Assembly: GCA_009379825.1 (NCBI GenBank)
Contig: WHTA01000026.1
Span: forward strand, 1 to 64,000
From: Streptosporangiales bacterium
GTDB lineage: Bacteria > Actinomycetota > Actinomycetes > Streptosporangiales > WHST01
Direction of reading: 5' to 3'
Length of the DNA stretch: 64,000 bases
Notes under the pieces: model-generated
Databases searched by the model: none
The model's input: the letters and a program-made list of their open reading frames with translations, nothing else
What the model was told of the DNA's origin: nothing
Shown here: in pieces, positions 2,799 to 17,602 of the stretch
Layout: each line of letters begins with the position of its first letter
Numbering within the stretch: the first letter of the stretch is position 1
Program-made: the position numbers and the translations under genes

Positions 2799-3826
2799 GT
2801 GATGTGCTCCGCCTCGTCGAGCAACTCCGCAGCCTTCGTCGACACCTCGTGCGAGAAGTGACATGCGGCCTGGTGGTCGGCACCGTCCACCTGCGTGAGC
2901 ACCGGTAGTTCGGTGCGGCACCTCTCCCTGCCCTGGGACAGCAGGCAGCGCGGATGGAACGGGCACCCGGAGGGCACGTTCGCCATGTTCGGTGGGCTGC
3001 CGGGGATCGGCTTGAGCCACCGTTCGTTCCCTGCCGCCTGCGGCAGGCTATTCATCAACCCGAGGGTGTACGGGTGCCGTGGCCGCTCGAAGATGGTCTG
3101 TACGTCGCCGGTCTCCACCACGTGCCCGGCGTACATCACCACCACCCGGTCCGCCATCTCGGCTATGAGCCCCAGGTCGTGGGTGATGAGGATGACGCCC
3201 GCATTCGTCTCTCGCTGCGCCTCCTTGAGCACCTCGAGGATCTGCGCCTGGATGGTGACGTCGAGCGCCGTGGTCGGTTCGTCGGCAATCAGCAGTGACG
3301 GATCATTCGCCATGCCCATCGCGATCATCGCGCGCTGCCGCATCCCGCCTGAGTACTCGTGCGGGTACTGCGTATATCGCCGTTCCGGCTGCGGGATATC
3401 CACGAGCTCGAGCAGCTCGACGGCCCGGTCGCGCAGCGCCTTCCCGCGGATGCCCGGGTTGTGCGACCAGATCGACTCGCCGATCTGGTCGCCCACCTTG
3501 AACAACGGGTCGAGGCAGGTCATCGGATCCTGTGGCACGAGTGCGATCTCGTTGCCTCTGACGGCGCGCAGCTCACGCTTCGACAACTTGAGCAGGTCGC
3601 GGCCGCGGAAGTACGCGGCACCCGTCCTGGTCATTCGCTTCGACTCGGGGACGAGCCGCAGCAGGGACATCACCGTCACGCTCTTGCCGGAGCCAGACTC
3701 CCCGACCACGCCGAGCGTCTCACCCGGGTAGACGTCGTAGCTGACCTCGTCGACAGCACGCAGGTACCCCGAGCTGGTGCGAAAGGTTACCGAGAGATCC
3801 TGGATGGACAGCACGGGTTCGGTCAC
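2795..3826 (-). CDS. oligopeptide/dipeptide ABC transporter, first ATP-binding subunit (OppD/DppD type)
   Basis: A 343-residue ATPase subunit of the importer. Walker A GESGSGKS, signature [13 protein letters not shown], Walker [13 protein letters not shown] and ITHDLGL are all present. The tail carries [16 protein letters not shown], the cysteine-rich motif of DppD/OppD C-terminal domains, which in some homologues binds an iron-sulfur cluster. The signature SGGMRQR is usual for the D subunit, while the downstream SGGQRQR is usual for F. The start is GTG with GGAGGGAGG upstream. It lies 15 nt after the permease gene and overlaps the next ATPase gene by 4 nt. Confidence 0.93.
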
Positions 3827-3841
3827 GGTCGCCTCCCTCCT

Positions 3842-4732
3842 TCAGCCGCGCAGGTTCGGGTCGAGGGCATCCCGCAGTCCGTCCCCGGCCATGTTGAAGC
3901 CCAGGACCACGAGGAAGATCGCGAGTCCGGGGAAGGTCGATACGTACGCGGCGTGGAAGATGTACTCCCGGCCTTCGCCGAGCATCGTGCCCCACTCGGG
4001 GCTCGGTGGCTGTACACCGAGACCGAGGAAACCAAGGCCCGCAGCGATGAGGATGGTCAACCCGACGTTCAGCGTCGCGTAGACGATGATCGGCGTGAGC
4101 GCGTTGCGCAGCAGGTGTCGCCGCAGGATGGCGAACCGGCTGGCGCCGAATGCCTCTGCTGCTTCGATGTAGACCTCCTCGCGCAACGTCAGTGCCAACC
4201 CCCTGGCCAGTCTGATGAACTGCGGCACGACACCGATCCCCGCGGCGATGATCACGCTCTGCATGCCGACACCGAGCACTGCCACCAGCGCCAGTGCGAG
4301 GAGGAACGAGTTGAACGCGAGCATGATGTCGGCCATCCGCTGGATCACGAGGTCGGCCCAGCCTCCGAGATAGCCGGAGATGAGACCGAGTGGAACGCCG
4401 ATCCCGCTGGCTATCCCGACGGCGAGCACACCGATGATCAACGTGTACCTGCCGCCGTACATGATCCTGGCAAGGATGTCCCTACCCAAGCCGTCGGTGC
4501 CCAACGGGTGTGTCCACGACGGAGCGGCGAACGACGCCGCGAGATCCTGCTTGGCCGGATCGTACGGAGTCAGAAGCGGCGCGAACACCGCAAGGAACGT
4601 GAACACCAGCAAGATGCCGATGCCGATGACGGCCGCCTTGTTACGTAGCAGTGCCTTCAGCGCCGCCACCGCGGGGCGGCTGCCTCGCCGATCCTCCACC
4701 GCATCGCGCTCTTCGATGACCGTGTCAGTCAT
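3842..4732 (-). CDS. peptide ABC transporter permease, DppC/OppC type
   Basis: This 296-residue inner-membrane permease has the OppC-type N-terminal extension before the first helix, then six predicted transmembrane segments. HPLGTDGLGRD is the conserved DppC periplasmic motif, and EAAEAFGASRF (about 190-200) is the EAA coupling loop that contacts the ATPases. It forms the translocation pore with the DppB-type partner. It overlaps that partner's 3' end by 8 nt, so both are likely translated in a coupled way. Confidence 0.93.
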   Translation of the reverse strand: MTDTVIEERDAVEDRRGSRPAVAALKALLRNKAAVIGIGILLVFTFLAVFAPLLTPYDPAKQDLAASFAAPSWTHPLGTDGLGRDILARIMYGGRYTLIIGVLAVGIASGIGVPLGLISGYLGGWADLVIQRMADIMLAFNSFLLALALVAVLGVGMQSVIIAAGIGVVPQFIRLARGLALTLREEVYIEAAEAFGASRFAILRRHLLRNALTPIIVYATLNVGLTILIAAGLGFLGLGVQPPSPEWGTMLGEGREYIFHAAYVSTFPGLAIFLVVLGFNMAGDGLRDALDPNLRG

Positions 4733-5657
4733 AGAGGTTCACCCGTGGGTCGACGACCGTGTACAACAGGTCGGTGATGATGTTGACCACGATGAACATC
4801 GCGGCGAACGTGAACACGATTCCCTGCACCATGGGGAAGTCGCGCGCATTGATCGAGTCGATGAGCAACCGTCCGAGGCCGGGCCAGGCGAACACCGACT
4901 CGGTGAGCACCGCCCCTCCGAGCAACGTACCGAACTGCAGACCGATGACCGTCAGGATCGGCACGAACGAGTTCCGCAACGCGTGCTTGTACACGACGAC
5001 TCGTTCCACGAGACCCTTCGCCCGCACCGTCCTGATGTAGTCGCGCCCGAGCACCTCGAGCATGTTGGACCGGGTCATCCGCGACACGATCGCCGTGGAG
5101 AACACGCCGAGCGTCAACGAGGGCAGGATCAGGCTCGACAAGCTCGCCGCGCCGGAAGCGGGAACGACCTTGAGGTTCACCGCGAACACCACGATGAGCA
5201 GGATGCCGAGCCAGTAGACCGGCATGGAGATACCCATCACGCCGACAGCGGAAACCAGACTGTCGATCCAGCTGTCCTTGTGGGTGGCCGCGATGACGCC
5301 GAGCAGGATCCCGACAACGACACCGAACAAGGTACCGAGCACAGCGAGCTCCACGGTGAACGGCAACCGCGCCATGATCTCCTCGGTCACCGGACTGCCG
5401 GTGCGCGCCGAGACACCCATGTTGCCGTTCATCAGATGCTCGAGGAACCGCCAGTACTGGACGATGATCGGCTCGTCCAGCCCCAACTGGCGCCGGATCC
5501 GCTCGACCTCGGCCTGAGTGGCCTCCATCCCCGCGATCATCCGCGCCGGGTCGCCGGGCAGGAGTTGGATGAGTCCAACCAACACCAGCCCGACGCCCAG
5601 CAACGTGATGACCGAGGCAACGAGCCGCCTCGTCATGTACACCCAGAAACCGCGCAC
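4725..5657 (-). CDS. peptide ABC transporter permease, DppB/OppB type
   Basis: A 310-residue permease with a first transmembrane helix at about residues 11-30, the LPGDPA motif that follows helix 1 in DppB/OppB proteins, and five more helices. The EAA-like cytoplasmic loop is RTVRAKGLVERVVV. The start is GTG with GGAGA upstream. It lies 37 nt downstream of the binding-protein gene and overlaps the OppC gene, the usual order A-B-C-D-F. Confidence 0.93.
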   Translation of the reverse strand: MRGFWVYMTRRLVASVITLLGVGLVLVGLIQLLPGDPARMIAGMEATQAEVERIRRQLGLDEPIIVQYWRFLEHLMNGNMGVSARTGSPVTEEIMARLPFTVELAVLGTLFGVVVGILLGVIAATHKDSWIDSLVSAVGVMGISMPVYWLGILLIVVFAVNLKVVPASGAASLSSLILPSLTLGVFSTAIVSRMTRSNMLEVLGRDYIRTVRAKGLVERVVVYKHALRNSFVPILTVIGLQFGTLLGGAVLTESVFAWPGLGRLLIDSINARDFPMVQGIVFTFAAMFIVVNIITDLLYTVVDPRVNLYD

Positions 5658-5694
5658 GTGTCTCCGCTCAGCTCAACACACGATCTGCGGAACG

Positions 5695-7272
5695 CTACTT
5701 CTTGGCCGGCCGTGCGTAGACGGCGTCGAACTTCTCGTTCGGTATGTAAGAGACGCCTTCGACGTCACTGGAGTGTGCAAGGAGCAGGGTCTGGCTCCAC
5801 AGGAACATCCATGGCGCATCATCCCAGATCTGCTTCTGCGCATCGCAGTACATCTTGTCGCGAGCTGCGTCGTCCAACTCCGTGTTGCCCTTGGCGATGA
5901 GCGACTCGACCTTGGGGTTGGTGTAGAACGCGCTCGCCAGCCCGTTCGTCGGCCACTGCGACTTCTGGAACATCTGGAACTGGCTTGGCGCGTCCAGCGC
6001 TCCCGGAGCCCAGCCGAGGAGGTGCATGTCGTACACCTGCTCGTCCTTCGCCGCACCCGTGTTGGCGATGTAGCTCGGCCAGTCCGTTGTCCTGACCTTC
6101 ACCTTGACACCAACCTCACGGAGGTTCGCCGCGATCGCCTGGGCAGCCTGCTTGTCCTGCAGATACCGGCCGGACGGGGTGCCCATGGTGACCGACAGGT
6201 TCTTCGCACCCGCATCGGCCAACAGCTGTTTCGCCTTCTTGGGGTCGTACTCGTAGCTGCCCACGCTGCAGTAGCCGTCGAGGCTCGACGCGAACGGTGA
6301 GTCCACGACATCGACCGCACCGAACACCACCTTTTCGGCGATGCTCTTCTTGTCCACGGCGTAGTTGAGTGCCTGCCGTACCCGCTTGTCGTCGAACGGT
6401 GGCTTGGAGTTGTTGAATGCGGTGAAGACCGTACGGTCGCTCGGTGCCTGCACCACCTCGAGCGCGGAGTCTTCCTCCAGCGCCTTCAGGTCGGACACCG
6501 GCGGGTTCATGATCATTTCCGCCTGACCGGACCGCAGCATCGCTTCGCGCGAGTTGCTCTCCGGCACGATGTGGAAGACGACCCTGTCGTAGTGCGGCTT
6601 CTTACCCCAATAGTCGCCGTACTTCTCGTAGACCGCCTGGTCGCCCTTCTTGAACCTGACGAAGGAGTACGGGCCGGTACCTACCGGCTTCACGATGTTC
6701 TTGTAGCTGTTGCCGTCCTTCTCGGCCGACTCCGGGGACATCATTCCGGAGATGGTCGAGCTCAAGAAGAGCGGAAGGTTCGGCGAGGGATTCTTGAGGT
6801 CGATTTCGAGCGTTGTCGGATCGGCGGCAGTGACCTTGCTGATCACTTCGTAGTTACCGCGGATCGGTACCTCTACCTTCGGGTCGAGCAACCGGTCAAG
6901 ATTGAATTTCGCCGCCTCGGCATCGAACTTGGTGCCGTCCTGGAACTTGACGCCCTCGCGCAGCTTGAACGTCATGGTCTTCCCGCCGTTCGAAGTCTCC
7001 CAGGACTCCGCCAGGCTCGGCTGCACCTTGCCCTTCTTGTCGAGCTTGGTGAGGGCTTCGACGCCGTAGTCGACAACGTTCTGCACCGTCGTCGTGGTCT
7101 GCTGCACCGGGTCGACCGTGTCGAGGTCGACGCCGATGCCGATGTTGAAAGTCTTGTCAGCGCCCTCGCCGCCGCCACCACCGCCGCCGGTGGTGCACGC
7201 GCTAAGTACTAAGGCACCCGCTACGGCCGCGATCAGCGCCACGCGAGTACCGCTTTTCCCAGCTCGCCGCAT
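5695..7272 (-). CDS. peptide ABC transporter substrate-binding lipoprotein (SBP family 5)
   Basis: This 525-residue extracellular lipoprotein captures the ligand for the downstream permease. The signal peptide ends in lipobox LSAC (Cys26), followed by a Gly-rich linker. The mature part has the family 5 pattern: FNIGIGVDLDTVDPVQ at the start, LAESWETSNGGKTMTFKLREG, VGTGPYSF, and YAVDKKSI. Homologues bind oligopeptides, dipeptides, nickel, opines or sugars, so the ligand is not fixed by sequence. The neighbouring amidohydrolase and M20 peptidase favour peptides or acylated amino acids. The ATG at 7272 has GGAGGCGGAGAGG upstream. Confidence 0.92.
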   Translation of the reverse strand: MRRAGKSGTRVALIAAVAGALVLSACTTGGGGGGGEGADKTFNIGIGVDLDTVDPVQQTTTTVQNVVDYGVEALTKLDKKGKVQPSLAESWETSNGGKTMTFKLREGVKFQDGTKFDAEAAKFNLDRLLDPKVEVPIRGNYEVISKVTAADPTTLEIDLKNPSPNLPLFLSSTISGMMSPESAEKDGNSYKNIVKPVGTGPYSFVRFKKGDQAVYEKYGDYWGKKPHYDRVVFHIVPESNSREAMLRSGQAEMIMNPPVSDLKALEEDSALEVVQAPSDRTVFTAFNNSKPPFDDKRVRQALNYAVDKKSIAEKVVFGAVDVVDSPFASSLDGYCSVGSYEYDPKKAKQLLADAGAKNLSVTMGTPSGRYLQDKQAAQAIAANLREVGVKVKVRTTDWPSYIANTGAAKDEQVYDMHLLGWAPGALDAPSQFQMFQKSQWPTNGLASAFYTNPKVESLIAKGNTELDDAARDKMYCDAQKQIWDDAPWMFLWSQTLLLAHSSDVEGVSYIPNEKFDAVYARPAKK

Positions 7273-7312
7273 TGCCTCTCCGCCTCCTTGGTGGTAGGGC
7301 CCCCGAGGTTCG

Positions 7313-7325
7313 GAAAACTATTTTC
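7313..7325. promoter_or_regulatory. small A/T palindrome upstream of the binding-protein gene
   Basis: GAAAA-CTA-TTTTC forms a 5+3+5 inverted repeat about 40 nt upstream of the start at 7272, in an otherwise GC-rich 190-nt gap that also holds a TTGACG -35-like hexamer on the minus strand at 7387-7392. It may be an operator for the transporter operon, but no regulator gene is adjacent and no convincing -10 was found. Confidence 0.3.
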
Positions 7326-7463
7326 GGCATCCTCCACGCTGAGGTAGGTAATGGGTGACGTTGAGAATTGCATACCCAATATGAAGCGTCAACAGTGCGT
7401 CCGGCGGCGGTGGGCGTGGCGTCACCGGGACGCGTTCGACCCTGCACTATCGCGCATGCGCGG

Positions 7464-8690
7464 CTACGGAACAGGCAGCTCGCCGGCCACCACGGTGCCG
7501 CGACAGACCACGGCGCGGATGCGGTCGGTGGACAGTTCGTCTATCCGCTCCCATGGCCGTCCCTCGAGTACGACGAAGTCTGCGTAGCTGCCTGCGGTGA
7601 CCCGTCCGGCCAGGTCGGTCAACCCCAATGACGCACCAGCGGTAGCCGTGGCAGCACGCAGTGCATTCTCCGCGTCCAGCTCCAGCACCTCCGCCATCCG
7701 CACGGTCTCGGCCATCTGGTCGCCGAAGGCCAGGAAGTATCCACTCGCGTCGGTCGCCAGCACGAACCGCACGCCGGCCTTCGCGGCCCACCGGAACCCG
7801 GCATCCCGCGACGGCACCAGCCGCATCGCCTTGGCCCTGGACTCCTCGCCCACAGGCGCCCGGCCACCAGCGATGATGTCGTTGATCAGCAGCGTTGGCC
7901 CGATCGCGATGCCGGCGGCTGCGATCGCCTCGGCCTGCTCCTCGGTCATCTCCGTGGCGTGCTCGATCGAGTCGACCCCCGCGTCCAGCGCCTTCTGGAT
8001 GCCCGCGGGCGTGTGTGCGTGCGCGGCCACCCGCATACCGAGTGCATGCGCCTCGTCGACAGTCGCCTCGACCTCGGCCTCGGTGTGGTTGCGCCAGTGC
8101 ACGTTGTCGCGCGCGGAGAGCACTCCGCCGCTGGTGAAGATCTTGATCCCCGTCAGGCCCTTCTGCGCCCACGTACGGACCAGCTTGCGGCACTCGTCCG
8201 GGCTGTCGGCGGTCGGCCCGCGCAGCGGGTGTGCCGGTGGCACGAACAGGTCGTGGTGCCCGGCCGTCATCCCCACCGGCCCGCTCGCCCGCACCCGCGG
8301 CCCAGTCAGTACCGACGAGTCGAAGACGCGCGACAGCGCGACCTGCACCTCGTCCGCGGCCAGGTCGCGCATCGTGGTCACGCCGTGGCGCATTGCGCGC
8401 TGTGCGTTGGCGGCGGCGTGCAGCACGTGCTCCTCGCGCGTGGTGAGCATCGGCCACACCGACGTGTCGTCACCACGCGGGTTGCCGACCGCGTTCGCCC
8501 GCCCGACCAGGTGCACGTGGGTGTCGACCAGGCCGGGAATGAGGCTCAGCTCGGGCGACCGCTCGTCACCGCCGGGCACCACATCCTCGATGCGGTCACC
8601 GCGCCACCGCACCGTGCAGTTGCCGCGATCCGATACACCGTCCCACACCCGGATGTCGATAGCGCCGTATTGAGAATCGTCAGCTGCCAT
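7464..8690 (-). CDS. metal-dependent amidohydrolase (imidazolonepropionase/prolidase-like)
   Basis: This 408-residue enzyme of the amidohydrolase superfamily should hydrolyse an amide or cyclic amide with a one- or two-metal centre. Visible ligands are H58 and H60 (GLVDTHVHL), K183 (GIKIFTSGG, the carbamylated-lysine position), H224/H226 (AAHAHT), H244 (SIEHA) and D314 (LATDAS). The C-terminal GSYADFVVLEG is the usual return to the small beta domain. The ATG at 8690 is preferred to an upstream TTG at 8717 because it directly precedes the first beta strands. Homologues include Xaa-Pro dipeptidases acting on acylated or carboxyl-proline peptides. It lies 191 nt from the transporter operon on the same strand. 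Confidence 0.85.
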   Translation of the reverse strand: MAADDSQYGAIDIRVWDGVSDRGNCTVRWRGDRIEDVVPGGDERSPELSLIPGLVDTHVHLVGRANAVGNPRGDDTSVWPMLTTREEHVLHAAANAQRAMRHGVTTMRDLAADEVQVALSRVFDSSVLTGPRVRASGPVGMTAGHHDLFVPPAHPLRGPTADSPDECRKLVRTWAQKGLTGIKIFTSGGVLSARDNVHWRNHTEAEVEATVDEAHALGMRVAAHAHTPAGIQKALDAGVDSIEHATEMTEEQAEAIAAAGIAIGPTLLINDIIAGGRAPVGEESRAKAMRLVPSRDAGFRWAAKAGVRFVLATDASGYFLAFGDQMAETVRMAEVLELDAENALRAATATAGASLGLTDLAGRVTAGSYADFVVLEGRPWERIDELSTDRIRAVVCRGTVVAGELPVP

Positions 8691-8778
8691 GCGAACACGG
8701 TAGCCGCTGGGTCGCAATACGTCGCCACCCTTTCGAGCACCGTGATAACGTCACCCAAACCGCAGGGGTGCCGACGTA

Positions 8779-9945
8779 ATGCGGGAGCGCCGAGTGGACG
8801 CGAAGCAAGCGGTCAAGAAGGCCATCGACGATGCCGGCGAACGGCTCGTCGACCTCAGCCATCGGATCCATGCCAACCCTGAGCTCGGTTTCGCCGAGCA
8901 CAAGGCGAGCCGATGGGTCGCGGAGGAGCTGGAACGCGGCGGGCTCGACGTACAGCTCGGCGTCGCCGATCTTCCCACCGCACTCGTGGCGACGGCCGGT
9001 TCCGGACCGCTGGTGCTCGGCATCTGCTGCGAGTACGACGCACTCCCCGACGTCGGTCACGCGTGCGGACACAACGTGATCGCGGCCGCGGGCGTCGGCG
9101 CGGCGATCGGCCTCGCCGGCCTCGCCGACGAGCTCGGCATCACGGTGAAGGTCTTCGGCACGCCCGCGGAAGAAGGCGGCGGCGGCAAGGTACTGATGCT
9201 CGAACGTGGCGTCTTCGCCGACACGCACGCCTGCATGATGGTGCATCCGTCACGGTACGAGCGGGTGGACACGAAGATGTTGGCGATCTCGAGCTATCGG
9301 GTCGACTACACGGGCAAGGAGGCGCACGCCTCCGCGCACCCTGCCGAAGGCATCAACGCGGCCGACGCGCTCACCGTCGCCCAGGTGTCCGTCGGCCTGT
9401 TGCGGCAACACATCCAGGCTACGGACCGGATCCACGGCATCGTCACGCACGGCGGTGAGGCACCGAACATCGTGCCGGCACACACCAGCGCGTCGTACTA
9501 CGTCCGCGCCGCCGACTTCGAGGCGCTCGAGACGCTGACGGCGAAGGTGCGCGCCTGTTTCGACGCCGGCGCCATGGCGACCGGGGCGGCCATCCAGGTG
9601 AGCGAGCCCACCCCGCCGTACGCGGAGATGCTGAACGACGAAGTGATGATGGCCTACTACAAGGCCAACGCGGAGGCGGCCGGCCGCCAGTTCCCCGAGC
9701 TGTCGCCACGGGAGCTGGCCGCGGTCGGCTCGAGCGACATGGGCAACGTCTCGCGTGCCATGCCCTCGATCCACCCGATGCTCGGCCTCGACTGCGGTGA
9801 CTCGGGCAACCACCAACCCGAGTTCGCCAGGCACTGCGCCGGCCCGTCCGCCGACGCCGCAGTCGTGCAGGGCGCCACGGCGATGGCCTGGACGTACGCC
9901 GACCTTGCCGGCGACGAGCTGCAGCGCACCCGCCTGATGACCTGA
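8779..9945 (+). CDS. M20-family metallopeptidase/amidohydrolase
   Basis: A 388-residue zinc hydrolase of the M20D type (aminoacylase, hippurate hydrolase, p-aminobenzoyl-glutamate hydrolase relatives). HRIHANPELGFAEH is the N-terminal signature, GHACGHN (93-99) gives metal ligands, and GTPAEEGGGGK (127-137) carries the catalytic glutamate. The dimerisation-domain histidine is likely in GKEAHASAHP. Such enzymes release amino acids from N-acyl or small amide substrates. A GTG at 8794, also preceded by GGAG, is an alternative start five codons in. It is divergent from the amidohydrolase gene, and together with the importer it suggests uptake and cleavage of acylated or amidated amino acids. Confidence 0.87.
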   Translation: MRERRVDAKQAVKKAIDDAGERLVDLSHRIHANPELGFAEHKASRWVAEELERGGLDVQLGVADLPTALVATAGSGPLVLGICCEYDALPDVGHACGHNVIAAAGVGAAIGLAGLADELGITVKVFGTPAEEGGGGKVLMLERGVFADTHACMMVHPSRYERVDTKMLAISSYRVDYTGKEAHASAHPAEGINAADALTVAQVSVGLLRQHIQATDRIHGIVTHGGEAPNIVPAHTSASYYVRAADFEALETLTAKVRACFDAGAMATGAAIQVSEPTPPYAEMLNDEVMMAYYKANAEAAGRQFPELSPRELAAVGSSDMGNVSRAMPSIHPMLGLDCGDSGNHQPEFARHCAGPSADAAVVQGATAMAWTYADLAGDELQRTRLMT

Positions 9946-9959
9946 CCGTACGACCGACC

Positions 9960-9990
9960 CGATGAGCGTTCGATGAGAAAACGCTCATCG
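9960..9990 (+). terminator. hairpin after the M20 peptidase gene
   Basis: GATGAGCGTT and AACGCTCATC form a perfect stem (11 bp including the flanking C-G pair) around a 9-nt loop, 15 nt after the M20 stop codon. There is no T-tract, as is common for actinobacterial hairpin terminators. It separates the peptidase from the glycosyltransferase operon. Confidence 0.6.
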
Positions 9991-10033
9991 ACGGCTCACC
10001 TGGCTATCACCTGGGCTCACCAGGCTCTCGGTC

Positions 10034-11227
10034 ATGAGCTCCCCACGGGTCACCACGTTGCGCAGGCCGCGGATCGCGTTGTACTCGCACGACGCAGTCG
10101 GCCTCGGCCATATCCGCAGGAACATCGCCATCGCGGGTGCGTTGCGCCGGCTGAACCCGGCACCCGACGTGCTGCTTATCACAGGCACACCGGAGGCCGC
10201 CGCACTCGCCCGACCGGACGGCTGTGACGTACTCGGCCTGCCGGCGCTGACGAAGACGTCGACCGGCGGCTACGGGGCGCGCCACCTGTCGCTGTCGCTC
10301 GGTGAGCTGATCGGGATGCGCGCGGAGATGGTGCACAGCGCGCTCTCCGCGTTCCGACCCGACCTGCTCGTCGTCGACAAGCACCCGCGCGGGTTCCGCG
10401 GCGAGCTCACCCCGACGCTCGACACGCTCACCGCCCGCGGCGCGACGAAGGTGGTGCTCGGCCTGCGCGACGTGCTCGACGAACCGGCCAGGGCGCGGCG
10501 CGAGTGGGCGGACAACCGGTCGACCGAGGCCGTGTCCCGGTGGTACGACCAGGTCTGGCTCTACGGCGACCCGCGGGTGCACGACCTGACGGCCACCCTG
10601 CGGCTGCCGGGCTCGGTGGCCGCGCTGGCCACGTACACCGGTTACCTGGCCGACCGGCCGATGCCCGAGGAGCGGGCGGGCGGGCGTTACGTGCTCGGGC
10701 TGGTCGGCGCGGGCGGCGACGGCGGTCCGCTCGCAGAGGCGTTCGCCGGCGCGGCCATGCCGCCGGGGTACGGCGGGGTGCTGATCACCGGGCCGCATCT
10801 CCCGCCGCCGCGCCGGTCCACGATCAGGGACCGTGCCGCCGCGCGGGCGGACCTCCAGGTGCACGACTTCGTGCCCGACATGGTGCCGTGGCTCGACCAG
10901 GCAGCCGCCGTCGTCGCCATGGGCGGTTACAACACCGTCTGCGAGGCGTTGGTCCGGCGGCTGCCGACCCTCGTCGTGCCGCGGGTACGGCCACGCGCGG
11001 AGCAGCTGGTGCGGGCCAGCGGGCTCGCCGCCACCGGGGCGGTCGACGCGCTCCACCCGGACGACCTCAGCACCGCGCGGGTCGGCGACTGGCTGGCCAC
11101 CGCGGTACGCTGGCCGGCGCGCGACGTCGGCCAGGTCGACCTCGACGGCCTGCGCCGGCTGCCGGCGCTCGCCGAGCAGCTGCTGCACGGTGGCGCGACC
11201 TGTGCGGAGGACGAAGATGTGGCGTGA
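10034..11227 (+). CDS. predicted glycosyltransferase, MurG-like GT-B fold (COG4671 type)
   Basis: This 397-residue cytoplasmic glycosyltransferase begins after a short lead with ALYSHDAVGLGHIRRN, the glycine-rich N-terminal loop and GHxRRN motif of the COG4671 predicted glycosyltransferase group. The C-terminal half has VAMGGYNTVCEAL, the GGYNT nucleotide-sugar loop comparable to the MurG/GT28 donor site. No signal peptide or transmembrane helix is visible. It is the first gene of a six-gene overlapping operon and overlaps the next gene by 11 nt. Acceptor and donor sugars are unknown. Confidence 0.82.
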   Translation: MSSPRVTTLRRPRIALYSHDAVGLGHIRRNIAIAGALRRLNPAPDVLLITGTPEAAALARPDGCDVLGLPALTKTSTGGYGARHLSLSLGELIGMRAEMVHSALSAFRPDLLVVDKHPRGFRGELTPTLDTLTARGATKVVLGLRDVLDEPARARREWADNRSTEAVSRWYDQVWLYGDPRVHDLTATLRLPGSVAALATYTGYLADRPMPEERAGGRYVLGLVGAGGDGGPLAEAFAGAAMPPGYGGVLITGPHLPPPRRSTIRDRAAARADLQVHDFVPDMVPWLDQAAAVVAMGGYNTVCEALVRRLPTLVVPRVRPRAEQLVRASGLAATGAVDALHPDDLSTARVGDWLATAVRWPARDVGQVDLDGLRRLPALAEQLLHGGATCAEDEDVA

Positions 11228-12446
11228 CGGCGACCGGATCGGTTACGTGGTGAAGCGCTACCCGAGGTTCTCCGAGACGTTCGTGGTCGCCGAGATCATC
11301 GCGAGGGAGAGCCGTGGCGCGGACGTCGACATCTTCGCGCTCCGGCCGTGCGTGGACGGCAGGTTCCACGACGCGCTGGCGAAGGTGCGCGCGTCGGTCA
11401 CGTACCTCACCCGCGCCGGCAAGGCGGAGGAGCTCTGGTCGGTGCTGCGCGACGCAGCGCCTGCCCTGCCTGGCCTGCCTGGCCTGCCGCTCGCGCTCGG
11501 TGAGCTGCTCGACCACGACGCCGAGACCGCAGGGCAGGCGGTCGAGCTCGCCCAGCAGGTGAAGGAACGCGGCCTCACCCACCTGCACGCGCACTTCGCG
11601 ACGTCGGCGACCACCGTGGCCAGGCTGGCCGGCATGCTCGCGGACGTCCCGTACTCGTTCACGGCGCACGCCAAGGACATCTTCCACGAGTCCGTCGAGC
11701 CCGAGGACCTGCGCACGAAGCTCGCCGACGCACACCACGTCGTGACGGTCAGCGACTTCAACGTGGCGTACCTCGCCGAACGGTTCGGCGCCGCGGCCGC
11801 CCGGGTGCACCGGGTGTACAACGGGCTGGACCTCGACGACTTCGGGTACCAGGAGCCGGCGGCCGCTCAGCCACCCGTGGTGCTCGGCGTGGGCCGGCTG
11901 GTGGAGAAGAAGGGCTTCGACGTCCTCCTGGACGCCTGTGCACTGCTCACCGCGGCGGGACGTGAGCTGCGGTGCCGGATCGTCGGCACCGGACTGCTCG
12001 AGGACGACCTGCGGGCGCAGGTGCACAGGCTCGGCCTCGGCAACGTCGTGCAGCTGACCGGTGCGCTCCCGCAACCCGAGGTGCGGCGGGAGATGCGTGC
12101 GGCGACCGTGCTCGCCGCGCCGTGCGTCGTAGGCGCCGACGGCAACCAGGACGGCCTGCCGACCGTGCTGCTCGAGGCGATGGCGCTCGGCACCCCGTAC
12201 GTGTCCACGGGCGTGGCGGGCATCGACGAGGCGGTGGTGCACGAGCGCACCGGCCTCGTGGTGCCGCAGCGGGACGCGGCCGCACTCGCGCGCAGCATCG
12301 CGCGCCTGCTCGACGACCAGCTGCTCCGTACGAGGCTGGCGGCAGCGGCGCGGGCACACGTCGAGCGGTCCTTCACCAGCGAGCGACAGGCCGACGAGCT
12401 CGACGCGCTCCTGCAGGCCGACGGCTCGCTCGCAGGAGCGCACTGA
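11217..12446 (+). CDS. glycosyltransferase family 4 protein
   Basis: A 409-residue GT-B glycosyltransferase. The N-terminal domain starts GYVVKRYPRFSETFVVAEI, the KxFPxxSETF motif of exopolysaccharide GT4 enzymes. Later come FTAHAKDIF, the acceptor-side VSDFN and VYNGLDLDDF. The C-terminal GT4 domain has GVGRLVEKKGFDVLL and the EX7E-like EDGLPTVLLEAMALG variant (here starting DGLPTV). The ATG at 11217 has GGAGG 6 nt upstream and overlaps the previous gene by 11 nt. It probably adds a hexose to the same glycan or lipid acceptor as its neighbours. Confidence 0.9.
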   Translation: MWRDGDRIGYVVKRYPRFSETFVVAEIIARESRGADVDIFALRPCVDGRFHDALAKVRASVTYLTRAGKAEELWSVLRDAAPALPGLPGLPLALGELLDHDAETAGQAVELAQQVKERGLTHLHAHFATSATTVARLAGMLADVPYSFTAHAKDIFHESVEPEDLRTKLADAHHVVTVSDFNVAYLAERFGAAAARVHRVYNGLDLDDFGYQEPAAAQPPVVLGVGRLVEKKGFDVLLDACALLTAAGRELRCRIVGTGLLEDDLRAQVHRLGLGNVVQLTGALPQPEVRREMRAATVLAAPCVVGADGNQDGLPTVLLEAMALGTPYVSTGVAGIDEAVVHERTGLVVPQRDAAALARSIARLLDDQLLRTRLAAAARAHVERSFTSERQADELDALLQADGSLAGAH

Positions 12447-13597
12447 TGCGGGTGGCGTACGTGTGCGCAGACGCCGGCATCCCCGTGTATGGCAGCAAGG
12501 GTGCGTCGATCCACGTGCAGGAGGTGCTGAAGGTGCTCTCGGCAACGGCCACGTCGGTCGACCTGTTCTGTAGGCGCACCGGCGGCACGCCGCGCGGTGT
12601 GCTCGGCGCGGTCACCACCCACGAGCTCCCCGTACCGGCCGCCGACCTCGCGACCAGGGAACGGCTCTGCCGGCAGGACGACGAGCGGCTGGCGCGGCGG
12701 CTGACCGCGGCCGGGCCGTTCGACCTGGTCTACGAGCGGTACTCGCTGTGGAGCCAGGCCGGCATGACGTACGCGCGGGACCTGGGCGTGCCGGGTGTGC
12801 TCGAAGTGAACGCACCGCTCATCGACGAACAGCGCACGCACCGCGGCCTCGTACACCGGGCCGAGGCGGAGGCGGTGCTGCGCACCGCGGCGCGTGCGGC
12901 CACCGTGGCCGTCGCCGTCTCTGGGCAGGTGGCCGCGTGGGTACGCGCGCACGTCCCGGACGCCGACGTCGTCGTGCAACCCAACGGCGTCGACGTCGAC
13001 CGCATCCGGCCGGCCGCGGCACCTTCCGCGGAGCCGTTCACCGTCGGGTTCGTCGGCTCGCTCAAGCCGTGGCACGGCGTGCACACCCTGGTCGACGCGT
13101 TCGCCGCGCACGCCAGCCGTCACCCGCGCTCCCGGTTGCTCGTGGTCGGCGACGGACCGGAACGGAACGACCTCACCGAACGGGTGGCCAGGCACGGCCT
13201 CACCGCCACCACCGAGTTCACCGGCGCGGTGGCGGCCGACGAGATCCCCGCACTCCTACAGCGGATGACCGTCGCGACCGCGCCATATCCGCGCGACGAC
13301 GGGCACTACTTCTCGCCGCTGAAGGTCTACGAGTACCTGGCCGCCGGGCTGCCGGTGGTGGCCAGTGCGATCGGCCAGCTCACCGACGTGCTCACGCACG
13401 ACCGCGACGGCGTGCTCGTACCGGCGGGCAACCCGGCCGCGCTCGCCGCCGAGCTGTCCGCACTCCACGACGACCCCGCCCGCCGCCACCGGCTCGGCCG
13501 GCAGGCACGCGAGACGGCCACGCGGCACACCTGGACCCAGGTCGTCGAGCGCACGCTCGACGCCGCGAACACGGCGAGGATGACCAATGTCGGCTGA
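12446..13597 (+). CDS. glycosyltransferase family 4 protein
   Basis: A 383-residue GT4 enzyme starting MRVAYVCADAGIPVYGSKGA, with the N-terminal Gly-rich GSKGASIHV donor loop typical of actinobacterial GT4 proteins. The C-terminal domain shows GFVGSLKPWHGV, VVGDGPERN, TGAVAADEIPALL and SPLKVYEYLAAGLPVVAS, which holds the EYLAAGLPVV donor-sugar loop. The start ATG overlaps the preceding TGA by one base (TGATG), so translation is coupled. It is the third glycosyltransferase of the operon. Confidence 0.9.
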   Translation: MRVAYVCADAGIPVYGSKGASIHVQEVLKVLSATATSVDLFCRRTGGTPRGVLGAVTTHELPVPAADLATRERLCRQDDERLARRLTAAGPFDLVYERYSLWSQAGMTYARDLGVPGVLEVNAPLIDEQRTHRGLVHRAEAEAVLRTAARAATVAVAVSGQVAAWVRAHVPDADVVVQPNGVDVDRIRPAAAPSAEPFTVGFVGSLKPWHGVHTLVDAFAAHASRHPRSRLLVVGDGPERNDLTERVARHGLTATTEFTGAVAADEIPALLQRMTVATAPYPRDDGHYFSPLKVYEYLAAGLPVVASAIGQLTDVLTHDRDGVLVPAGNPAALAAELSALHDDPARRHRLGRQARETATRHTWTQVVERTLDAANTARMTNVG

Positions 13598-15347
13598 CCC
13601 CAAGCTGGAGCCCGCACTCAGGGGTTTCCGCCGCACGCTGCGGTACGTACGGCCGCACCTGCGGCCACAGCGCAAGTTCGTCGCCGGCGGCCTGCTCGCG
13701 CTCGCCGGCGAGGTGGCGTTCCGGCTGCTCGAACCGTGGCCGCTGAAGATCGTCATCGACTCGGTCATCGTGCCGGCGACCACCGGGCGCGGCGGCGCGA
13801 ACCCGTTCCTCCCGCTGCTTGCCGCAGCGGTCGCGGTGGTGGCGTTCGCCGGCTTCCGCGCCGCCTCCGCGTACCTGATGACGGTCTGCTTCGCCATCGC
13901 CGGCAGCCGGGCGATGACCACCGTGCGCGCCGACCTCTTCGCCCACGTGCAGCGGCTGTCGCTGCGCTTCCACGGGCACACGAAGACCGGCGACCTGCTC
14001 ACCCGGTTGGTCAGCGACGTGAACCGCGTACAGGAGGTCGCCGTCACCGCCGCGCTGCCCTTGGTCGGCAACGTCGTCGCGCTGCTGAGCATGACCGCCG
14101 TCATGTTCGTGCTCAACTGGCAGCTTGCGCTCGTCGTGGTCACGGTGTTCCCGACCTTCCTGCTGATGAGCACCTGGCAGAGCAGCCGGATCAACGGCGC
14201 GGCGCGGCAGCAGCGGCTGAGAGAGGGGGAGCTGGCCGGCACGGCCGGCGAGGCCCTGTCGGCCATCAGGGTCGTGCAGGCGTACTCGCTCGAACCAGTA
14301 CTGCAGCAGGCGTTCAGCGCGAACAACACGCGGGCACTGCGCGACGGCGTGGTCTCGTCCCGGCTGGCCGCCGGCCTGGAACGACGCACCGACCTGCTCG
14401 TGGGCTTCGGCACCGCCCTGGTGCTGCTGACCGGCGGTGCGGTCGCGTTGTCCGGCGCGCTGACCGTCGGCGAGCTGGTCGTCTTCCTGACCTATCTGAA
14501 GAGCGCGTTCAAGCCGATGCGCGACCTGGCCAAGTACACCGGCAGGCTGGCGAAGGCCGCGGCGTCCGGCGAGCGCATCGTCGACCTGTTCGAGACGCAC
14601 GCGGAGGTGGCGGACCGCCGGTACGCCTGGCACGCACCGCGCTTCACCGGCGACGTGCGGTTCGAGGACGTCGACGTGCACTACGGCCCTGGCGCGCCCG
14701 CGGTGTCCGGCGTCGACCTGCACGTCCCGGCCGGCACCCGGGTGGCACTGCTCGGCCGGTCCGGCTCGGGGAAGTCGACGCTCGCCTCGCTCGTCCCCCG
14801 GTTGCAGGACCCGACCGGCGGCCGGGTCCGTATCGACGGCTACGACGTGCGCGACCTGACGGTGGCCTCGTTGCGCAGCCAGGTGGCGATCGTCCTGCAG
14901 GAGACCGTACTGTTCGCCACGACCGTCCGCGAGAACATCAGGTACGGACGGCCGTCCGCCTCCGATGCTCAAGTGGAGCACGCGGCCAGGCTGGCCAACG
15001 CCGACGAGTTCGTCACGCTGATGCCGCAGGGCTACGACACGATCGTCGGCGAACGCGGCGAGAGCATGTCAGGCGGCCAGCGGCAACGCATCGCCATCGC
15101 GCGCGCCATCCTCAAGGACGCGCCCATCGTCATCCTCGACGAGGCCACCACCGGGCTCGACGACGAGAACTCCCGCGGTGTGCTCGACGCGCTGCGCGAG
15201 CTCACCGAGGGCAGGACCACATTCGTCATCTCCCACGACGAGACACAGGTGGCCGACTGCACGATGGTCGTACGGCTGGCGGACGGCCAGGTCACGTCCG
15301 TGGACCACACACCGCGGCACAGCGCGTTCGCGGGGCGCCCATGCTGA
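13587..15347 (+). CDS. ABC exporter, fused membrane and ATPase domains (MsbA/lipid-exporter type)
   Basis: This 586-residue half-transporter has six predicted transmembrane helices in its first 330 residues, then a complete nucleotide-binding domain. LLGRSGSGKSTL is Walker A, VLQETVLF the Q-loop, [15 protein letters not shown] the signature, VILDEATTGLD Walker B and ISHDE the switch histidine. It would work as a homodimer. Type IV exporters of this kind flip lipids, glycolipids or peptides outward. It overlaps the upstream glycosyltransferase by 11 nt and the downstream kinase gene by 7 nt, so its cargo is most simply the product of the glycosyltransferases. Confidence 0.92.
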   Translation: MSADPKLEPALRGFRRTLRYVRPHLRPQRKFVAGGLLALAGEVAFRLLEPWPLKIVIDSVIVPATTGRGGANPFLPLLAAAVAVVAFAGFRAASAYLMTVCFAIAGSRAMTTVRADLFAHVQRLSLRFHGHTKTGDLLTRLVSDVNRVQEVAVTAALPLVGNVVALLSMTAVMFVLNWQLALVVVTVFPTFLLMSTWQSSRINGAARQQRLREGELAGTAGEALSAIRVVQAYSLEPVLQQAFSANNTRALRDGVVSSRLAAGLERRTDLLVGFGTALVLLTGGAVALSGALTVGELVVFLTYLKSAFKPMRDLAKYTGRLAKAAASGERIVDLFETHAEVADRRYAWHAPRFTGDVRFEDVDVHYGPGAPAVSGVDLHVPAGTRVALLGRSGSGKSTLASLVPRLQDPTGGRVRIDGYDVRDLTVASLRSQVAIVLQETVLFATTVRENIRYGRPSASDAQVEHAARLANADEFVTLMPQGYDTIVGERGESMSGGQRQRIAIARAILKDAPIVILDEATTGLDDENSRGVLDALRELTEGRTTFVISHDETQVADCTMVVRLADGQVTSVDHTPRHSAFAGRPC

Positions 15348-16570
15348 CCGCAGCCGACCGCGAGCTGGTGACGCGCGAGCCCGCCATCCCCGGCCTCCGC
15401 GTCGCGCTCGACCCCGACGCACTCCTCGAGCTGTTCCTGCCGCAGTGGCCGGCCGGCCAGCCGCAGCCGCAGAGCGCCCACGTCAGGTACGTGCGCTACA
15501 AGCCTGGCACCAGCCTGCTCGCCGGGGTGGAGCTACGGACGGCGACGGAGTCGGCGCGGGCGTTCGTGAAGGCGTACGGTCGCGGCGGCGAGGCGAAGGT
15601 CGCGAAGCTGCGGGCGAACGGGGACGCCGACCCGGTCGGGTGGGGCGCCCTCGTCGACGACGAGCTCAACCTCGTCTTCGCCGACGCCACCGCCGACCGC
15701 GCCCTGCCCGGGCTGCGGCGGCTCACGACGACCGCCGACGGGCGACTGCAGCCGTTGCGCTACAAGCCGGAGCGCCGCTGGGTGGGCAGGCACCACCAAG
15801 CGGCTGGCGTCGTACGGCTGGTGAAGGTACACCGGCCGCGCACGACGGCCGGCTACCTGGCGGCGCAACACGCGCTGACGGCCGCCGGGCTACCCGTCCC
15901 CGCGCTGCACTCGGCCGACTCGGAAACCGGTGTGCTGACCTACGACTGGTTCGACGGCACCCCGCTCGACCAGCTGGCACCCACCGCGGACCAGCTGCAC
16001 GAAGCCGGCGCGCTGCTCGCCCGGTTGCACCGGGCGGCCGGGCCGGTGCAGGGCCGGCCGCCGAACCCCACGGCCGACGTGGGAGCAGCGGTCGAGGCGA
16101 TCGCGGCGATCGCGCCGCGCTGCGCCACCGTCGCGCAGTCGGCCGTGCTCTCCGCGCTGCACGCACGGCGCGCGCTCGAGCCGGTCACCACCACCGTGCA
16201 CGGCGACTTCTCCGCCGACCAGCTGATCGCCCGTCCCACCGGTCTGGGCCTCGTCGACCTCGACCGGGTGCGCACGGACGACCCGGTCACCGACCTGGCG
16301 ACCTGGGTCGCCGCCGAGCTGGCCGGCGGGCGCGCGCCGGCCGACGCCGAGCCGGCCGACGTCCTCGGCCCGCTGCTCACCGGCTACCTCGCAGGCACCG
16401 ACCTGGCCGTACACCGCCGGCTGGCCGTGGCGACCACGCTGGCGTTGCTGCACCGCGCCGTCGAGCCGTTCCGGCACCGGGCGCCGGACTGGCTGCCGCA
16501 GACCGAGGCGCTCGTGCACGCCGCGGACCGGATGGCGCACGCGAGCCAGCACCGGAGGGTACGTGCCTGA
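15341..16570 (+). CDS. APH-fold phosphotransferase (kinase) family protein
   Basis: A 409-residue protein with the aminoglycoside-phosphotransferase/choline-kinase fold. The catalytic loop is VHGDFSADQL and the metal-binding strand is GLVDLDRVRTDDP, equivalent to the kinase DFG. An N-lobe lysine lies in FVKAY, and a KPERRWV stretch sits between the lobes. The usual Asn of HGDxxxxN is Gln here. The fold acts on sugars, aminoglycosides, choline and amino acids. In this operon a sugar or glycolipid kinase is more likely than an antibiotic-resistance enzyme. ATG at 15341 overlaps the ABC exporter stop by 7 nt. Confidence 0.8.
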   Translation: MLTAADRELVTREPAIPGLRVALDPDALLELFLPQWPAGQPQPQSAHVRYVRYKPGTSLLAGVELRTATESARAFVKAYGRGGEAKVAKLRANGDADPVGWGALVDDELNLVFADATADRALPGLRRLTTTADGRLQPLRYKPERRWVGRHHQAAGVVRLVKVHRPRTTAGYLAAQHALTAAGLPVPALHSADSETGVLTYDWFDGTPLDQLAPTADQLHEAGALLARLHRAAGPVQGRPPNPTADVGAAVEAIAAIAPRCATVAQSAVLSALHARRALEPVTTTVHGDFSADQLIARPTGLGLVDLDRVRTDDPVTDLATWVAAELAGGRAPADAEPADVLGPLLTGYLAGTDLAVHRRLAVATTLALLHRAVEPFRHRAPDWLPQTEALVHAADRMAHASQHRRVRA

Positions 16571-17602
16571 CCTCGCTGCCCTCGTGCGACTGCGGCCGGC
16601 CACCGGCGGTGAGCTGCGGCTGCGCCGGTCCTGGCCGCGCGGCGAGCCACCTGCTGCTCGAGTACACCGATGCCGACGGCGTGCCGATGCCCGGCCAGTG
16701 GTTCGCCGACCCGCACCGCCTCCGACGTACGGCCGCACGTACGCCGGCGCCGGCGGAGGTGGTGCGCGAAGCCGGCGTGCTGCTGCAGCCGGCCGGCGCG
16801 GACCGGCGGCTGCCCGGCCTGCGCACGCTGCTGCAGGAGCCGGCGAACACCCTCGTCGTGCACCGGCCGGAGCGCCGCGGCGTGGTGCGAATGGCGACGG
16901 GCACCAGCTACGCCAAGGTCGTGCGGCCAGGACGCAGCGCGCACCTGGTCGACAACCTGGCCAGGGCGGACGCCGCGGCCGCCTTCGCCGTACCGCGGGT
17001 GGTCGACCACGACAGCGCCGCCGGCACCGTGGTCTGCACAACGCTCGACGGGCGCACGCTCTACGACATCGGCGCCGACCCGTCGTGGTCGACCGCCGCC
17101 GCGTGGCGGACCTGGCGTGCCGTCGGCGACGCTCTGCGCACGCTCCACGACGCGCCGCTCGACGACGCGCTGCCGGAGCACGGTGCGTCCCGCGAGCACG
17201 ACACCACCGCAGACTGGCAGCACGCGGCCGTACGGCACGGCCTGCTGCCACCGGTCGATGTCGACGCCGCACTCCGGGAGCTGCGCGCCGGCGCCCCTGG
17301 CCCGCTCGGACTGCTGCACCGCGACCTGCACGACAAGCAACTGGTGCGCCGCCCGGACGGCGGCATCGGCCTGGTCGACCTGGACACCCTCGCCGTCGGC
17401 GAGTGCGCCCTGGACCTCGCCAACCTGCTGACCCACCTGGAGCTACGGGTCGCCGCCGGCCGTCTCGCCGGGGCCACCGCGGCCGCCGCCCGCGCCGGCT
17501 TCCTGACCGGCTACCGCCCGGACACCGCCACCCTGACCCGCATCCCCGCCTACACACCTACGACTACGAGCGGTCTACGCCTTCCGCCCCCGCCTCACCT
17601 GA
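16563..17602 (+). pseudogene. second APH-fold phosphotransferase gene, with two apparent +1 frameshifts
   Basis: The body reads HLLLEYTDADG, then GTSYAKVVRPG, and the catalytic LLHRDLHDKQLVRR with GLVDLDTLAVGECALDLAN, so it is an APH-fold kinase paralogous to its neighbour. The expected start, a GTG at 16563 overlapping the upstream gene, gives MPDLAALVRLRPATGGELRL in a different frame; the frame must gain one base near 16640-16650 to reach HLLLEY. Near 17555 a second gain is needed to reach the natural-looking ending AVYAFRPRLT with TGA at 17600-17602. Without it, the frame runs to 17691 into the antisense of the next gene. Either the gene is broken or the sequence has two one-base insertions. 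Confidence 0.7.

Follow-up and report, generated by a model that had tools for sequence, protein, structure and literature searches.

Several described systems resemble, each in part, the six-gene cassette (g1 to g6) analysed here. Assembly of the lipid A core relies on several glycosyltransferases (WaaG-type GT4s), core kinases and export by MsbA, and the cassette likewise combines several glycosyltransferases, dedicated kinases and an MsbA-like half-transporter. It differs in having no lipid A pathway, and its kinases are maltokinase/APH-like. With the PglK-type flipping of lipid-linked oligosaccharides it has in common a fused TMD-NBD exporter beside GT4 enzymes, but no oligosaccharyltransferase is present, and two kinases are added. 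The teichuronic acid operon tuaA-H carries glycosyltransferases along with the UDP-glucose dehydrogenase TuaD, and a TuaD-like enzyme accompanies some cassette loci; the regulator of the tua operon is of the PhoB/OmpR family, as is the one proposed for the cassette. In place of the Wzx-type flippase and the polymerase of tuaA-H, however, the cassette has an ABC exporter and kinases. An AlgE-like porin and a nucleotide-sugar dehydrogenase liken the Escherichia version of the cassette to alginate-type export, but an Alg8/Alg44-type synthase is missing and an ABC exporter is present. Tandem homologues of g1 and g2 (31-40% identity) reside in 'redA-redB' of R. etli, on pSymB of S. meliloti and on plasmids of Ruegeria, Sulfitobacter and Azospirillum, in some cases with a UDP-sugar dehydrogenase nearby. 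Unlike the cassette, these rhizobial and Rhodobacterales loci have a different third glycosyltransferase and no kinases, and carry instead a polysaccharide deacetylase, lyase or phosphatase and an oligopeptide-type ABC importer. Maltokinase and actinobacterial glucosamine kinase share with g5 and g6 an N-terminal extension preceding the APH-type kinase, but are found in a different genomic context.

The initial annotation knew of no named system with this exact set. In agreement, neither the set nor a product assigned to it was found described in open-licence papers on COG4671, rhizobial redA/redB, alginate export, phosphoglycolipid clusters, MsbA-like proteins with sugar kinases, and teichuronic acid.

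Organization of the six-gene unit

The window, i.e. the whole stretch of 64,000 nt analysed, carries the cassette as follows:

g1, 10034..11227, + strand: 397-aa GT-B glycosyltransferase, C-terminal half MurG/GT28-like
g2, 11217..12446, + strand: 409-aa GT4 glycosyltransferase, EpsE/WcaL-like
g3, 12446..13597, + strand: 383-aa second GT4 glycosyltransferase (PF13692, 5.2e-31)
g4, 13587..15347, + strand: 586-aa fused TMD-NBD ABC exporter, MsbA-like half-transporter
g5, 15341..16570, + strand: 409-aa APH-fold sugar-kinase-like protein with N-terminal extension, motifs HGDFSADQ and LVDLD
g6, 16563..17602, + strand: APH-fold kinase, paralogue of g5, frame broken near 16640 and near 17555

Genes g1 to g5 (10034-16570) are five complete, intact ORFs on one strand, overlapping by 11 (g1/g2), 1 (g2/g3), 11 (g3/g4) and 7 nt (g4/g5). 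The claim that every junction overlaps thus holds from g1 to g5, but is true of g5/g6 only for the nominal g6 start; nor can six open genes be maintained, as g6 is not a single open frame in the draft assembly. By reference to L022, a relative of the same genus, g6 residues 2-15 are read in the frame of the GTG at 16563; a second frame, which runs to 17565, encodes residues 16-329, and a third, ending at 17602, encodes residues 329-341. The breaks stem from an indel near 17555 and, near 16646, from a gap of 2 nt relative to L022; they may reflect either an assembly error or a pseudogene. The kinase core is intact despite the broken ends (HRDLHDKQ, DLDT), but with g6 frame-broken in the source genome the window's own copy of the cassette may be impaired. 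Such close packing is not the rule: some relatives have hundreds of nt between neighbouring genes, as between g5 and g6 in locus L019.

In Pfam, g1 marginally reaches the cut-off of Glyco_tran_28_C (PF04101; 22.3 bits vs 22), and its Jiangella orthologue scores 33.5 bits. The nearest solved structure is MurG (1f0k, E=1.4e-8), and the N-terminal motif YSHDxxGLGHxRRN is invariant in an alignment of 19 relatives. The GT4 assignment of g2 comes from Pfam (PF00534, 4.5e-35), and the match to EpsE (NF041876, 187 bits) falls under the equivalog cut-off of 400. The exporter g4 matches PF00664 (8.6e-46) and PF00005 (2.4e-32); its best NCBIfam model is MsbA (TIGR02203, 388 bits, equivalog cut-off of 602 not reached), and PglK (NF050066) is matched at 135 bits, the cut-off of 1000 not being reached. 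The lack of a Wzx-type flippase, a Wzy polymerase and a priming transferase, already pointed out from the letters, is borne out by Pfam and NCBIfam profiles for the six genes; within the unit there is no polymerase or ligase.

Taken alone, g5 has no Pfam match, and is assigned to the APH family (4.3e-16) in the genome scan; the core frame of g6 matches APH in Pfam (PF01636, 2.2e-15). The two are paralogues (hhalign E=1.4e-19), fused to each other in L029, L033 and Paracoccus, and g6 is fused to a sulfotransferase in L039. AlphaFold2 predicts an APH/maltokinase-type kinase fold for g5 (mean pLDDT 92.8), and the model of the Jiangella g6 orthologue has a mean pLDDT of 93.0. The structural comparison with maltokinase advised by the initial annotation placed mycobacterial maltokinase (4u94, E=6.4e-11, TM 0.46/0.42) on top of the Foldseek PDB matches of g5, and actinobacterial glucosamine kinase (6hwj, E=2.3e-10, TM 0.46/0.40) on top of those of g6; several antibiotic kinases are also among the matches. 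Neither protein reaches E<=0.001 with a maltokinase family of Pfam or NCBIfam, and as the glucosamine-kinase signature is likewise absent (see below), membership of either family is not supported. The H-G/R-D catalytic loop of the APH fold and the DxD metal motif are present in both families: HGD is found by pattern in 33 of 34 g5 proteins, and in the alignment in the remaining one (L033, which the domain hit cuts in two); all 34 g6 proteins have H[RG]D.

Distribution, losses and recurrent neighbours

Co-occurrence was assessed in 37 independent loci, ascertained by g1 only and counted if the contig was long enough. All six functions, i.e. g2, g3, g4 and two kinase genes or domains beside g1, are found in 37/37. 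The order is nearly constant, one kinase being placed ahead of g4 in two of these loci; in the distant loci L074 and L078 the same six families are ordered g1-g4-g2-g3-g6-g5. Hosts include Actinomycetota, Planctomycetota, Paracoccus and E. coli, and Jiangella, Microbacterium and Marinactinospora are among the carriers. In E. coli the cassette resides exclusively on plasmids (18 of 5,426 complete genomes); the carriers are conjugative plasmids, from cattle, food and human isolates. Pairwise distances among the six families correlate (r=0.78-0.92), and shared host history contributes to this as well. No intact g1 devoid of partners was found among g1 matches above 300 bits with enough contig. 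At the cassette site, related genomes retain just a g5-like ORF, with the catalytic loop gone in three aligned cases. Losses thus look like losses of the whole cassette, rather than the independent loss of members that had been named as evidence against a common pathway. The cassette is real, and the association exceeds chance; the 37/37 co-occurrence supports the view that the six genes make a single functional unit.

A nucleotide-sugar (UDP-glucose) dehydrogenase adjoins the cassette in 9/37 loci, where about 0.3 adjacent copies are expected from 44 copies in about 102 Mb. The dehydrogenases scanned are above the cut-off of TIGR03026; against the TuaD equivalog they score 310-380, the cut-off of 700 not being reached. 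Genome G000 has two copies, both away from the cassette, and none in the window. The dehydrogenase is non-adjacent in most loci and went undetected in one of 22 genomes with the cassette, so that glucuronate is perhaps not used by every cassette. Sulfotransferases lie beside the cassette in four loci, and the Escherichia cassette is accompanied by an AlgE-like outer-membrane porin (PF13372, 1.1e-23) and a dehydrogenase. As a candidate defence island the locus was discarded, PADLOC giving only ABC-ATPase-type matches, from g4.

Upstream repeats and the candidate regulator

Two overlapping repeats precede g1:

Inverted repeat, 9960..9990, no strand: perfect 11-nt arms CGATGAGCGTT / AACGCTCATCG and a 9-nt loop, between a peptidase gene and g1
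Operator-like array, 9981..10024, + strand: four 11-nt direct-repeat units ACGCTCATCGA-CGGCTCACCTG-GCTATCACCTG-GGCTCACCAGG

The inverted repeat has a single exact copy in the 6.15-Mb genome. It is absent upstream of g1 in the 13 relatives inspected, and is therefore probably local. Being unique to the source genome, the palindrome was rejected as a conserved regulatory element; the overlapping direct repeat is conserved instead. CTCAY-N6-CTCAY, with a period of 11 nt, occurs upstream of g1 in 33/50 loci; core pairs with period 11 number 50, against 0.6 +/- 0.7 in dinucleotide shuffles, and other periods yield 0-4 pairs. In the array, the first TCAY core lies 49 nt before the g1 start, and the three-core form occurs once genome-wide, before g1. 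In G000 and G001 the same CTCAY repeat is found 49 nt before the orthologous HK-RR operon; the response regulator orthologue of G000 lies at C66:3666-4334. An OmpR-type two-component system is among the recurrent neighbours of the cassette; in the source genome the repeat-bearing HK-RR operon sits away from it. Since 11 of 25 cassette-free genomes also have an orthologue, the regulator is not dedicated to the cassette. Both the direct-repeat operator and the two-component system are additions to the initial annotation.

Proposed function and alternative readings

The recurrence of UDP-glucose dehydrogenase, sulfotransferase and AlgE-like porin genes nearby points to an acidic glycan. We favour, at a probability of roughly 0.6, the view that the cassette is a regulated six-gene unit for the assembly, phosphorylation and export of an acidic glycan, either displayed on the surface or secreted, which probably contains uronate. 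As to product chemistry, lipid carrier, order of steps and kinase substrates, we infer the following. The MurG-like g1 would start or extend a sugar on a membrane acceptor, and g2 and g3 would extend it by other sugars, of which one or more would probably be a uronic acid supplied by UDP-glucuronate. Phosphate would be transferred by g5 and g6 onto sugar hydroxyls of the product or of a direct precursor, and g4 would move the product across the membrane in the manner of MsbA or PglK. Passage through the outer membrane of Gram-negative hosts would be the task of the AlgE-like porin; in some lineages sulfotransferases may add extra charge. Transcription would be controlled by the OmpR-type two-component system, the regulator plausibly binding the CTCAY-N6-CTCAY repeats as either activator or repressor. 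The export of a small phosphorylated glycoside or glycolipid, as initially proposed, is not established, an acidic secreted glycan being favoured by the neighbours at least as well. A fuller scenario can be put forward only tentatively: a pathway, spread by horizontal transfer, for a glycan with several kinds of acidic group (uronate and phosphate, with sulfate in some lineages), which the kinases would modify once it is assembled and before its ABC export. A single conserved box for an OmpR-type regulator would control the pathway, which would be common to Gram-positive actinobacteria, planctomycetes and plasmids of E. coli.

The product might instead be a phosphoglycolipid kept in the membrane, g1 glycosylating a lipid, g2, g3, g5 and g6 elaborating the headgroup and g4 flipping it, in analogy to the GT4 enzymes, core kinases and MsbA of lipid A core assembly. 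MurG, to which g1 is nearest by structure, has a lipid-linked acceptor, and MsbA is the best model of g4; the Escherichia AlgE-like porin, however, would be expected with a soluble glycan that is exported, not with a lipid retained in the membrane, and no acyltransferase or other lipid enzyme recurs near the cassette, so that this reading seems somewhat unlikely. It is also rather improbable that g5 and g6 serve nucleotide-sugar synthesis by phosphorylating free mono- or disaccharides, the exported glycan being phosphate-free. Their top structural matches are indeed free-sugar kinases, but mutase, pyrophosphorylase and isomerase genes are not recurrent among the neighbour clusters listed. The signature Q-x(2)-RE-x(2)-YA-x(3)-LP-x-W of actinobacterial glucosamine kinases (PMC6520443) is found in 0/34 g5 and 0/34 g6 proteins. 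Moreover, within the unit the kinases are found at the exporter end, and one of them is fused to a sulfotransferase, an enzyme of decoration.

The APH fold, and the antibiotic kinases among the structural matches, could suggest an aminoglycoside-like antibiotic locus, with the kinases conferring self-resistance and g4 acting as efflux pump. We consider this very unlikely, as cyclitol, aminotransferase and deoxysugar genes are missing from the recurrent neighbours, and the six genes span several phyla and E. coli plasmids, whereas an antibiotic cluster would be strain-specific. Genes of the GT4 and ABC types abound, and translational overlap is not kept in relatives, as would be the case if the six genes were mere neighbours in a general surface-polysaccharide region, with no joint action; the invariable co-occurrence over several phyla, the shared operator before g1, the kinase fusions and the loss of whole cassettes leaving a degenerate g5 make this hardly credible.

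As far as found in the open-licence literature, no product has been described for this putative surface-glycan unit, which spans several phyla and conjugative E. coli plasmids. Small in size, conserved in content and preceded by a readable operator, the cassette lends itself to testing. If the glycan-phosphorylation reading is true, known kinase activities would be extended to exported glycans, and many genes annotated as aminoglycoside phosphotransferases would be explained as probably not being resistance genes.

Composition and distribution of the unit

A scan of GTDB genomes with g1, the GT28-like gene, as sole query retrieved 20 loci, hosted by Jiangella, Microbacterium, Marinactinospora, Allonocardiopsis, Serinibacter, Auraticoccus, Actinomyces, and MAGs of Solirubrobacterales, Acidimicrobiales, Planctomycetota and Gemmatimonadetes. 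Class- and phylum-wise searches identified g1 in 20 of 395 genomes and in 17 of 297, hence the unit is rare and patchy. Co-occurrence was assessed in 37 loci where g1 exceeded 300 bits and the contig was long enough; their regions were fetched and searched with one profile HMM per gene. g2, g3, g4 and two kinase genes or domains have been found in all 37, and their presence is not built in, because g1 alone was used to find the loci. The co-occurrence check suggested in the initial annotation comes out positive; order is shifted in two loci, where one kinase precedes g4, and the families are reshuffled in the distant loci L074 and L078.

In the window the unit is organized as follows.

10034-11227, + strand: g1, intact, GT28-C-like half barely above the Pfam cut-off
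11217-12446, + strand: g2, intact, GT4 (Pfam)
12446-13597, + strand: g3, intact, GT4 (Pfam)
13587-15347, + strand: g4, intact, fused ABC exporter (Pfam)
15341-16570, + strand: g5, intact, APH family match in the genome scan, without Pfam match in the single scan
+ strand: g6, core frame APH (Pfam), reading frame broken
9981-10024: four repeat units, first core 49 nt before the g1 start

The description as six overlapping genes holds for g1 to g5, which overlap by 11, 1, 11 and 7 nt, and is not confirmed for g6, which spans more than one frame. Tight overlap is not conserved among relatives, so translational coupling, also proposed initially, is not a defining trait. Aligned with g6, a same-genus protein (L022) runs through three frames in succession, the breaks falling near 16640 and near 17555. 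The central one, which holds the kinase, is a long open frame with intact catalytic motifs, and its dN against the relative (0.36) is well under dS (0.73). The gene was therefore under constraint, and the breaks are either recent or assembly errors.

The site of the whole cassette in Marinactinospora hosts a g5-like ORF alone in four Streptosporangiales relatives (L023 to L026); it is still open, though the three aligned copies (L023, L024, L025) have a degenerate HGD catalytic loop, and is either a retained pseudokinase or a relic. Rather than independent loss of members, envisaged as counter-evidence at the outset, cassette losses look all-or-nothing, with only this remnant left. A further g1 copy in the Marinactinospora genome (L073) is partial and has no partners. 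In the g1-g4 tree the window groups beside Jiangella and Microbacterium is split, which suggests horizontal transfer. In Paracoccus the unit is plasmid-borne, its g5 and g6 being fused. It is also present, at 99% identity or above, on plasmids in 18 of 5,426 complete E. coli genomes. Two large E. coli plasmids (L053, 10010-20188, and L057) host, between insertion sequences, the full cassette together with genes for an AlgE-like porin and UDP-glucose dehydrogenase. The isolates behind the cassette plasmids are of bovine, food and human origin, and L057 also has a gene annotated as a heat-stable enterotoxin some 3 kb upstream.

A leader repeat and a candidate regulator

Inspection of the g1 leader region revealed direct repeats of 11-nt period, CTCAY-N6-CTCAY. 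The period was noticed before being tested, with other periods and random tiles as controls: 50 core pairs occur across 50 loci, versus 0.6 +/- 0.7 in dinucleotide shuffles and 0-4 for other periods (7 to 16), and about 1% of random 160-nt tiles from the same loci bear such a pair. The whole window genome contains a single copy of the three-core form, the one at this locus.

An OmpR-class response regulator resides beside the unit in 15 loci and a histidine kinase in 17, orthology not being general. One orthologous regulator group has a clear member in all six cassette genomes tested (about 335-364 bits, versus at most 231 for the next). This orthologue lies away from the unit in both the window genome and its sister, in an operon whose first gene follows the same CTCAY repeat at a distance of 49 nt. 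The operon (L106, 1727-6890, contig C66 of the window genome) includes genes for a small secreted protein, histidine kinase, response regulator and ABC-2 transporter, and is a candidate regulator of the cassette. We infer that the regulator may bind the CTCAY repeats. It is also found in 11 of 25 cassette-free genomes, and is not exclusive to cassette carriers.

Kinases, neighbours and plausible product

g5 and g6 are paralogues (hhalign E=1.4e-19), fused in Microbacterium barkeri, Serinibacter and Paracoccus. HGD is kept in 33 of 34 g5 sequences by pattern, and the remaining one (L033, split by the domain hit) reads HGD in the alignment; H[RG]D is kept in 34 of 34 g6. The g5 model predicts an APH/maltokinase-type fold (mean pLDDT 92.8). 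Among solved structures, g5 comes closest to mycobacterial maltokinase and g6 to actinobacterial glucosamine kinase, at TM-scores of about 0.4-0.5. No maltokinase profile matches either protein, and the published glucosamine kinase signature (PMC6520443) is found in none of 68 g5 and g6 sequences. Both are sugar-kinase-like. In a Planctomycetota MAG (L039, 16135-18300) g6 is fused to a sulfotransferase, and a second sulfotransferase gene lies directly upstream of g1.

The unit resembles MsbA- and PglK-type export of lipid-linked oligosaccharides in its working, with kinases added, but belongs to neither family by curated cut-offs. Those alphaproteobacterial loci that share only g1 and g2, including the annotated redA and redB of R. 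etli, form a sister group with other partners. The rhizobial g1-g2 homologues (L048, L052, L056), a candidate sister glycan system, sit with genes for an oligopeptide-type ABC importer, a UDP-sugar dehydrogenase and an adenylate cyclase; the S. meliloti locus additionally has a polysaccharide lyase and a deacetylase. Genes for an oligopeptide-type importer, an amidohydrolase and an M20 peptidase lie just upstream of the cassette in the window (1746-9945), and the importer shared with the sister systems is probably a coincidence. A Candidatus Manganitrophus plasmid (L055) carries g1 and g2 homologues with heparinase II/III-like, APH and radical SAM genes, several ORFs being apparently split by frameshifts. 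No description of the six-gene unit, and no product assigned to it, was found in the open-licence literature; the initial view of an undescribed pathway agrees with this.

Of the 37 loci, 9 have a nucleotide-sugar dehydrogenase next to the unit (Actinomyces, Microbacterium, Escherichia and several other families), above the TIGR03026 cut-off where scanned; the nearest equivalog of the actinobacterial ones is TuaD, under that model's cut-off. Given 44 copies in about 102 Mb (22 cassette genomes), our own arithmetic puts the expected number of adjacent copies (+/-10 kb) at about 0.3. The window genome has two full dehydrogenase genes, both away from the cassette. In four loci, two from Planctomycetota and two actinobacterial, sulfotransferases (PF13469 where scanned) lie next to the unit, one of them fused to g6.

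The main structural rival is a membrane phosphoglycolipid; the Escherichia unit, however, runs on into the AlgE-like porin and UDP-glucose dehydrogenase, and the porin speaks for a soluble product, at least in that host. That the genes form an antibiotic locus is improbable. In the best-supported account g1-g3 would assemble a glycan on a membrane acceptor, g5 and g6 would phosphorylate, and g4 would export the product; the weakest step is that the phosphate would sit on the glycan itself, not on a precursor. Taken together, the dehydrogenase, sulfotransferase and porin neighbours favour an acidic, uronate-containing exported glycan as the putative product.
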